This document shows, one piece after another, positions 57,077 through 59,550 of a stretch of DNA of 64,000 nucleotides (position 1 is its first letter; the number at the start of each line of letters is the position of its first letter). A program made the position numbers and the translations under genes. Origin of the DNA: Candidatus Altimarinota bacterium (GTDB lineage: Bacteria > Patescibacteriota > Gracilibacteria > BD1-5 > UBA2023); NCBI GenBank assembly GCA_024709505.1, contig JANJWP010000005.1, positions 1 to 64,000 on the forward strand. Direction: 5' to 3'. A model generated the notes under the pieces. It was not told where the DNA came from and did not search any database. It saw only the letters and a program-made list of their open reading frames with translations.

Positions 57077-57550
57077 TTAGGAGCGCCCTTTTTCGATTTC
57101 GGCAAGAAGCTCTTTCGCCATGTCCACGAGACGCTTTTGGTAGAGCGCTTCCCATTTGGCGACATCTTTCGCTTCTTCGTTGGAAACCGCTTCCAGCGAA
57201 TCGAGGCTCGCGAAATAGCGGGCGATTTCTTCGTCTTCTCCCGCGTCGAGAAAAACCGAATGACAGGCCGCGCATTGGTCCACGTGTACCTTGGAAAGGG
57301 CGTATTCGGTTTCCGTCATCGTCGCGCCGCATTTTGGGCATTTGAGGGGTTCGGTACGATCTGGACGATTGTCCCCATAGGAAAACGATTCGAATTTTTC
57401 CTTCGCCGGCATCGAGAGTAGCACGGACATTTCATCGAATTCGAAAAACATTCCGTGGCATTTTTCACAAACGTCGATATGCCGATTGCCGACGGGAATG
57501 GCGACGAATTCTCCGTCGCACGAGGGGCAGCGCCTTTCGTTTAAAGCCAT
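57077..57550 (-). CDS. Zinc-ribbon (zf-TFIIB type) protein
   Basis: RCPSCDGEFVAIPVGNRHIDVCEKCHGMFFEFDE; KCPKCGATMTE...VDQCAACHSVFLDAGEDE. Confidence 0.85.
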   Translation of the reverse strand: MALNERRCPSCDGEFVAIPVGNRHIDVCEKCHGMFFEFDEMSVLLSMPAKEKFESFSYGDNRPDRTEPLKCPKCGATMTETEYALSKVHVDQCAACHSVFLDAGEDEEIARYFASLDSLEAVSNEEAKDVAKWEALYQKRLVDMAKELLAEIEKGRS

Positions 57551-57690
57551 GTCGGGAAAACGTTGGGTTTAATAAGGGGTTTTGGATCGCAAAGAAGGGG
57601 AGTGGTGCGTGGCTGGTTGGGTTCATCATAGCGCATCCCGTGCGAAAAAGAAACGATTCCCGTTGAAATTTTTCGCCTTTCCCGTATCCT

Positions 57691-57859
57691 TTGGGTCGTA
57701 AGGTCGTTTCGCGTTTCGAAAAACGTCCGGTTTGGCACCCGGGACGGAAACGTAAAAAGACCGAGAGAGCCGCACTTCACGCGGAACTCGGGTGGAACCG
57801 CTCCGAAACGTCGGAGTCCCGAGGCCCGGACGCCGTCCGAGGGCCTCTTTCTTTTTTTC
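57691..57859 (+). promoter_or_regulatory. T-box riboswitch (Gly specificity) upstream of glyS
   Basis: Promoter TTGAAA 57663 - N16 - TATCCT 57685; antiterminator CTCGGG-TGGA-ACCG-CTCCG-aaacgt-CGGAG-t-CCCGAG (57787-57823); overlapping terminator GAGGCCCGGAC-gcc-GTCCGAGGGCCTC-TTTCTTTTTTT (57821-57859); TGGA complements UCCA of U73 tRNA-Gly. Confidence 0.9.
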
Positions 57860-57935
57860 GAGAGGGCGTCCGAGACGGATTCGGGCGGATTTTTTTTCGC
57901 GAATTTTTCGCGAATATCCTCTCACCCCTTTTCGT

Positions 57936-59339
57936 ATGGAAATGAAAGATCTGGTTTCTTTCGCAGTAGCGAAAGGCTTCGTTTACCAGGGTTCCGAGAT
58001 TTACGGCGGCCTCGCGAACGCTTGGGATTACGGCCCGAACGGTGCGCTTTTGAAGGAAAACCTTAAAAACCTCTGGATCAAGCATTTCGTCCAGAAGCGC
58101 TCCGACATGGTGCTTTTGGATGCGGCGATCCTCATGAATCCCCAGACCTGGGTGACTTCCGGCCACGTCGGAGGGTTTTCCGATCCGCTCATGGATTGCA
58201 AATCCTGTAAGCAGCGCCTTCGCGCCGACAAGCTCGTCGAAGAATACGTCGAAGCCACCGGAGACGCCGAGATGCCCGCCGAGTGGGCAGGGGAGTCCAC
58301 TCCCGCCGCCAATCTTACGGCCTACATCGCCAAGAAGGGGATCAAGTGTCCCAATTGCGGCGGAACCGATTTCAGCGACATCAAGAAGTTCAACCTCATG
58401 TTTAAGACGTTCCAGGGCGTTACCGAGGATTCCACCGCGACGGTGTACCTCCGTCCCGAAACCGCCCAGGGAATTTTCGTAAACTTTTCCAACGTCGTCC
58501 GGACTTCGCGCAAAAAGGTTCCTTTCGGTATCGCGCAGGTAGGAAAAGCGTTCCGCAACGAAATCACTCCCAAGAACTTCATTTTCCGCACCCGCGAGTT
58601 CGAACAGATGGAAATCGAATTCTTCTGCGAGCCCGAATCGATCGCTCCGGGCAAGCATCTCGAATGGCACGAAGCATGGAAGACCGTCTGCTGGAATTTC
58701 CTCACTAAGACGGTCGGGCTTAAAGAAGATCTGATGCGCTTCCGCAACCACGGACCGGACGAACTGTCGTTCTATTCGGCCGCGACGACCGATATCGAAT
58801 TCTATTTCCCCTTCGGCTGGGGCGAACTGTGGGGAATCGCCGACCGTACCGACTACGACCTTTCGGCCCACATGAAGGAATCCAAAGCCGACCTCGCGTA
58901 TTTCGATCCGTTTACCAACCAGAAATACGTTCCGTTCGTCATCGAACCGTCGCTCGGATTGAACCGCCTCATGCTCGTAACGCTCATTTCGGCCTACGAC
59001 GAAGTCGATTCCGGCGAAGGAAAGCGCGTCGTACTGCGCTTCAAACCCGAAGTGGCTCCGGTAAAGGTGGCCGTCCTTCCGCTCGTGAAAAAGCTCTCCG
59101 AAGAAGCCAAAAAGGTCTACGACCTCCTTTCCGACCACTTCGTCTGCGAATACGACGACGCCGGAGCCATCGGCAAGCGGTACTACCGGATGGACGAAAT
59201 CGGCGTTCCGTTCTCGATCTGCGTCGATTCCGAAAACTTCGAAGCCGGCCAGGTGACCGTCCGCGACCGCGACACCGGACTTCAGGAAACGGTGAAAATG
59301 GACGATCTCGTCGAATACTTCCGAAAGAAGGGGTGCTAA
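57936..59339 (+). CDS. glyS: Glycyl-tRNA synthetase (alpha2/eukaryote-like type)
   Basis: KGFVYQGSEIYGGLANAWDYGPNGALLKENLKNLW; TYLRPETAQGIFVNF-like VYLRPETAQGIFVNFSNV; RTREFEQMEIEFFCEP; VIEPSLGLNRLMLVTL. Confidence 0.97.
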   Translation: MEMKDLVSFAVAKGFVYQGSEIYGGLANAWDYGPNGALLKENLKNLWIKHFVQKRSDMVLLDAAILMNPQTWVTSGHVGGFSDPLMDCKSCKQRLRADKLVEEYVEATGDAEMPAEWAGESTPAANLTAYIAKKGIKCPNCGGTDFSDIKKFNLMFKTFQGVTEDSTATVYLRPETAQGIFVNFSNVVRTSRKKVPFGIAQVGKAFRNEITPKNFIFRTREFEQMEIEFFCEPESIAPGKHLEWHEAWKTVCWNFLTKTVGLKEDLMRFRNHGPDELSFYSAATTDIEFYFPFGWGELWGIADRTDYDLSAHMKESKADLAYFDPFTNQKYVPFVIEPSLGLNRLMLVTLISAYDEVDSGEGKRVVLRFKPEVAPVKVAVLPLVKKLSEEAKKVYDLLSDHFVCEYDDAGAIGKRYYRMDEIGVPFSICVDSENFEAGQVTVRDRDTGLQETVKMDDLVEYFRKKGC

Positions 59340-59390: not shown

Positions 59391-59550
59391 CAATGGCTCC
59401 CCGAACAGGATTCGTTCCTCTCGTCCTCGGCTCCGCCTCGGCCGCTCGGAACGCCTTGCCTACGGAGCCAAATCGTTGGCTCCGTACCGAATCGCCGCAA
59501 GCGGACGATCCGGAAGGCTGCGGTTTCGAATCCCGTTCTTCTCGCACCCA
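59391..59550. other. tRNA-remnant / structured element
   Basis: 24-nt copy (CAATGGCTCCCCGAACAGGATTCG, 59391-59414) of the tRNA-Asn 3' region at 59604-59627; perfect hairpin TACGGAGCCAA-atcg-TTGGCTCCGTA 59461-59486; T-arm-like GGTTTCGAATCCCG...CGCACCCA at the right end on the + strand. Confidence 0.6.

Follow-up and report, generated by a model that had tools for sequence, protein, structure and literature searches.

A stripped-down T-box leader, predicted to sense tRNA-Gly charging, upstream of glyS in a Gracilibacteria bacterium that reads UGA as glycine

The glycyl-tRNA synthetase gene (glyS) of this Gracilibacteria bacterium is very probably preceded by a transcriptional T-box riboswitch. 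To judge by its sequence, the leader is a real, stripped-down T-box with a predicted role in sensing tRNA charge; its parts covary and are conserved together with glyS across related genomes. The leader and its surroundings are placed as follows in the window, the whole 64,000-nt stretch of DNA analyzed:

57077-57550, minus strand: zinc-ribbon gene, divergent, on the other flank of the leader
57663..57690, plus strand: likely sigma-70 promoter (TTGAAA, 16 nt, TATCCT), predicted, with transcription expected to start near 57697
about 57697-57859, plus strand: T-box leader, 77 nt before glyS
57936..59339, plus strand: glyS, glycyl-tRNA synthetase (GlyRS) of 467 aa, 80% identical to a Gracilibacteria GlyRS; the putatively regulated gene

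The promoter site matched 9 of 12 positions (0.1 expected in shuffles). In relatives, -10-like hexamers were mostly found 28-50 nt upstream of the specifier, and in the window at 48 nt; with the promoter so placed, a longer Stem I would not fit. From 5' to 3' the elements run promoter-like site, Stem I, Stem III, antiterminator, and terminator with U tract, and the paired positions listed here were verified letter by letter. Between the T-box terminator and glyS lies a second terminator-like hairpin (57867-57897; 8 pairs, 5-nt loop, -10.6 kcal/mol, then eight T). A 29-nt direct repeat (93%) at 59391-59419 and 59604-59632 copies the 3' end of a tRNA-Asn gene 213 nt away, a pattern expected where a tRNA gene has been the site of an integration or duplication. 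A plasmid collection searched with the leader gave no match.

UGA is read as glycine in this organism. A GGDEF protein in the window reads through three in-frame TGA codons, and the GlyRS genes of relatives contain 0-25 of them. A tRNA gene with a UCA anticodon and U73, called as tRNA-SeC by ARAGORN, adjoins that of tRNA-Gly(GCC) (G000:C27:50825-50998).

The 3' part of the leader was resolved into these elements (helices named as in PMC7583486, A1 outer and A2 inner):

57765..57786, plus strand: Stem III, pairs 57770-57773/57781-57784, with flanks GAGAG and AA that fit RRRxG-Stem III-AA
57787..57823, plus strand: antiterminator, assigned from covariation, RF00230 and a leave-one-out model
57787-57792/57818-57823, plus strand: outer helix A1, CTCGGG/CCCGAG
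57793-57799, plus strand: T-box bulge TGGAACC (RNA UGGAACC), whose UGGA complements UCCA of tRNA-Gly
57800-57805/57812-57817, plus strand: inner helix A2, GCTCCG/CGGAGT, with a wobble as basal pair (G57800-U57817)
57821..57858, plus strand: intrinsic terminator GAGGCCCGGAC/GUCCGAGGGCCUC plus U tract (-18.7 kcal/mol, z = -3.2)

The bulge reads UGGAACC in 71 of 72 leaders, in keeping with the T-box form UGGN-ACC, in which N matches the cognate tRNA's discriminator base. The tRNA-Gly genes of the window genome have U73 and end in TCCA, confirming the fit between the TGGA bulge and the UCCA end that had been proposed in the preliminary description. A G-U wobble at the base of A2 is held to reject charged tRNA, as the aminoacyl sensor; the window leader keeps this wobble, and in 59 of the 72 leaders the pair is G-C. 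The terminator hairpin proper spans 57821-57847 and is followed by TTTCTTTTTTT; a terminator-like hairpin with a U tract was present in 70/72 leaders. Antiterminator and terminator, both described beforehand, are both in place, and their mutual exclusion, likewise claimed, holds only in part because the two folds share just 3 nt in this genome (57821-57823). Stem III with its flanks (GAGAG-CCGC...GCGG-AA, compared in the window only) agrees with the RRRxG-Stem III-AA motif of T-boxes (PMC7583486).

The Rfam T-box model RF00230, a search already suggested in the preliminary description, gave a single match in the whole 1.17-Mb genome, at the leader (23.8 bits, E 0.0014), and the leader was also matched in an all-family Rfam scan of 600 nt (E 0.003). 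This score is far below the Rfam gathering score (23.8 vs 93 bits), which a Firmicutes glyS T-box (58.1 bits) and thrS T-boxes within the class (30-48 bits) do not reach either; since the Firmicutes glyS T-box falls short too, the cut-off is not decisive. A first covariance model built from relatives included the window sequence and was therefore rebuilt without it, and the relatives-only model again had the leader as its sole match in the genome (33.2 bits, E 6.1e-5). In the 42 leaders compared, the antiterminator pairs were formed in 98.8% of cells (87.7% in shuffles), both sides had changed in 61 cells (15.6 in shuffles), and the covariation score was 0.493 (0.273 in shuffles), with none of 500 shuffles as high on these three measures, in a test that leans slightly towards structure because the ends of the aligned stretch were picked by pairing. 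Folded in full, the leader has an ordinary energy (z = -1.0), and the terminator has an exceptional one.

Of the 360 genomes of the class that were searched, 78 belong to the window's order, and 71 of these have a leader match; the named relatives are Candidatus Gracilibacteria MAGs. There was one leader per genome, except in G008, which has three and an estimated contamination of 6%. GlyRS was likewise found in 71/78 genomes of the order. The sole glyS-bearing genome of the order without the leader (G017) has only the 3' part of glyS assembled, and one genome (G115) has the leader and no GlyRS match. Together, the bulge, the covariation and this order-wide occurrence support what had been proposed from the window alone, a T-box riboswitch upstream of glyS in a UGA=Gly organism; lack of covariance support, or of the leader in relatives, had been named as grounds for giving that proposal up, and neither was encountered.

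In most genomes the leader stands directly upstream of glyS, and in some one to several genes intervene. At loci L207 (G039), L236 (G054), L202, L205, L208 and L209, the intervening genes are RidA-type and aldo/keto-reductase-like, and a membrane-like protein of ~100 aa without a Pfam match recurs there. Outside the order, matches within the class were sparse and comprised long-Stem I thrS leaders and short glyS leaders (L220, L223, L229). Weak covariance-model matches outside the order, such as L232-L234, look like chance and were set aside. In the wider phylum, T-boxes stood mainly before thrS and sometimes, as assigned by eye, before apparent ileS (L258) or valS (L268), or before glyS. The thrS T-boxes, with a UGGA bulge, are common across the phylum (in other Patescibacteria, L241, L246, L249-L254, L256, L257, L259, L261, L263, L264, L266 and L269).

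The 5' part of the leader forms an ultrashort Stem I:

57702..57762, plus strand: Stem I, base GGUC/GACC; folds so alone, on a plan common to 65 leaders
57711-57717/57747-57753, plus strand: lower helix
57718-57723, plus strand: 5' bulge, 6 nt
57724-57730/57739-57746, plus strand: upper helix, with G57741 bulged
57731..57738, plus strand: apical (specifier) loop UUUGGCAC
57734..57736, plus strand: specifier GGC, predicted partner the anticodon GCC of tRNA-Gly

A whole-leader MAFFT alignment was poor in Stem I, so for this region the leaders were lined up on the apical loop. The same plan of lower helix, internal loop, upper helix and apical loop was seen in 65/72 leaders, with an upper helix of 3-8 pairs, an apical loop of usually 6-9 nt, and an asymmetric internal loop (unpaired nt: median 6 in the 5' strand, 2 in the 3' strand). 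Both helices scored higher than when arms were exchanged between leaders (upper, 11.1 vs 4.4 ± 0.34; lower, 12.0 vs 7.1 ± 0.44). The internal loop occupies a fitting place for a K-turn, and some relatives have UGAUGA/GA-like sequences there; none is clear in the window leader, where a K-turn was not recognizable. No classical Stem I fits between promoter and antiterminator, and the preliminary description had been unable to assign one with confidence; the comparison of 72 leaders reveals the ultrashort one in its stead. The distal Stem I with the double T-loop motif that binds the tRNA elbow is absent, since Stem I is closed by the specifier loop and the -10 box lies a few tens of nucleotides upstream. 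Stem II with the IIA/B pseudoknot is absent as well, the stretch from Stem I to the T-box core measuring 15-62 nt, Stem III included.

Hairpin loops were screened for enriched trinucleotides with no codon assumed beforehand; UGG came first (53 of 69 leaders vs 7.6 expected) and GGA second (43 leaders vs 12.1 expected). The apical loop has the consensus U-GGN-A, the base after the specifier being A in 63/65. Stem I carries a codon that matches the downstream synthetase, GGC in the window and GGN in 65 leaders, and the comparison bears out the GGC in the apical loop that had been named as one of two candidate specifiers. The third base was A in 46 leaders, C in 9, U in 6 and G in 4. Its distribution on the GlyRS tree (42 rows), where the window has GGC and its closest relatives GGA, calls for nine changes or more. 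With GGC as the specifier in the window, and a tRNA-Gly with anticodon GCC encoded in the genome, tRNA-Gly(GCC) is the predicted ligand, which suggests an answer to the earlier question of which isoacceptor is sensed. The tRNA-Gly genes of this genome have A37, so pairing of U-GGC-A with the anticodon loop may in principle extend from U33 to A37. Specifier and codon use followed no clear rule among the leaders: GGC leaders had a somewhat higher local G+C (median 0.40 vs 0.28), and one genome has a GGA specifier although its glyS has no GGA codon. A search for tRNA-Gly(CCC) in GGG-specifier genomes, with a UCC tRNA as query, recovered only UCC.

On these observations we lean toward a doubly reduced transcriptional T-box class, fixed on glyS in an order of UGA=Gly Gracilibacteria, that would do without Stem II and also without the Stem I domain that binds the tRNA elbow, would hold tRNA-Gly only by its CCA end and by 3-5 bp between U-GGN-A and the anticodon loop (U33 to A37), and would have released the preference for C, with the G-U sensor turned into G-C in most members. 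In the window, RNA polymerase would start near 57697 and make the very short Stem I, whose apical U-GGC-A would pair with the anticodon loop of tRNA-Gly(GCC). Were this tRNA uncharged, its UCCA end would pair with the UGGA bulge, stabilizing the antiterminator and letting transcription proceed into glyS; with charged tRNA, the terminator at 57821-57858 would form and transcription would stop. We infer these steps of tRNA-Gly(GCC) binding, charge sensing and antitermination. With Stem II and the elbow-binding distal Stem I absent, only the anticodon loop and the 3' end would remain for gripping the tRNA.

Other readings fit the data poorly. It is improbable that the leader is a T-box whose specifier is not the apical UGGN, with the codon elsewhere (e.g., GGA at 57746-57748) and the loop serving, for example, as a second contact for the CCA end of the tRNA. 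The apical UGGN does resemble the UGGA bulge, and the GGA, within ACGGAAAC, was the other candidate specifier of the preliminary description; however, it belongs to the base-paired 3' side of Stem I and was rejected for lying in a helix. The fourth base of UGGN also varies (A/C/U/G) in relatives, whereas the bulge stays UGGA and the glycine-type tRNAs of the window genome all have U73. Since the bulge is nearly invariant while the loop base varies, the apical loop is no second copy of the acceptor contact. Even less probable is a tRNA-independent attenuator, or a plain terminator that merely resembles a T-box: the stable terminator and the ordinary folding energy of the leader would suit it, but a plain terminator has no need of the UGGAACC bulge or of the covarying helices that flank it, and the leader is tightly associated with glyS.

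We give equally little credence to the idea that the leader senses the UGA-decoding tRNA-Gly(UCA) and not a GGN isoacceptor. That tRNA must be charged by GlyRS, and its gene, beside that of tRNA-Gly(GCC), has the matching U73, but the UCA anticodon would place A36 opposite the first specifier base, a G, with which it cannot pair. A UGA specifier was rejected in the window because the triplet is absent: there is no TGA in 57691-57859, as had been stated before. Nor did any leader yield one, all 65 specifiers assigned (from UGG loops, the only ones considered) being GGN, even though UGA makes up as much as 74% of the glycine codons in relatives' glyS and more than 30% in 21 of 38 genes. The unbiased loop test likewise showed no enrichment of UGA.

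If the doubly reduced T-box is confirmed, these leaders would count as some of the smallest T-boxes known, and transcriptional tRNA sensing would be possible without the tRNA-elbow contact held essential for the class (PMC7583486). T-box control would extend to a candidate-phyla lineage, and the prediction is that a recoded organism regulates glyS by sensing a GGN isoacceptor and not the UGA-decoding tRNA. Being short and conserved, the leader would also be a handy model for the rejection of charged tRNA without the G-U sensor pair. In the open literature we found no paper on a T-box in connection with Gracilibacteria, Patescibacteria or the candidate phyla radiation, which is weak evidence because subscription papers were mostly outside the search.

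Among known systems, the leader shares with the Firmicutes glycyl T-boxes (glyQS/glyQ; RF00230) the gene family, the UGGA bulge, the antiterminator/terminator switch, the Stem III flanks, the absence of Stem II and, in the window member, the GGC specifier. In contrast to them, it has nothing distal to the specifier in Stem I and no double T-loop, its specifier is in the apical loop and not in a side bulge, its relatives mostly have GGA, and the G-U aminoacyl sensor, retained in the window, has mostly given way to G-C. A long Stem I with an elbow-binding motif is required by the best-studied transcriptional T-boxes, and Stem II is required by T-boxes whose Stem I is short (PMC7583486). The same paper attributes to Stem II the very strong bias of T-box specifiers towards C as their last base; in this order the preference is lost, 46/65 ending in A. 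The ultrashort translational ileS T-boxes of Actinobacteria (PMC7583486, PMC10651847) have the same short Stem I, apical-loop specifier and lack of an elbow-binding motif, but they act on translation and require both Stem II and the IIA/B pseudoknot, whereas here there is a 15-62 nt spacer and, in place of sequestration of the ribosome-binding site, a terminator with a U tract. The long-Stem I thrS T-boxes of the same class (L221, L225, L231) have the same type of antiterminator as the glyS leaders, but their match to the Rfam model takes in Stem I with its distal part, and that of the glyS leaders does not. A Clostridiales MAG glyS leader (L131) has an apparent ultrashort Stem I with the loop GUGGCGA, followed by what appears to be Stem II, and may be an intermediate form; that of a Moranbacteria MAG (L165) looks short in Stem I too. 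Given these two leaders and the T-boxes mentioned in the TBDB paper that were found with the transcriptional model and have a truncated Stem I (PMC7778990), the glyS leaders of this order are best regarded as a variant and not as a new kind of T-box.
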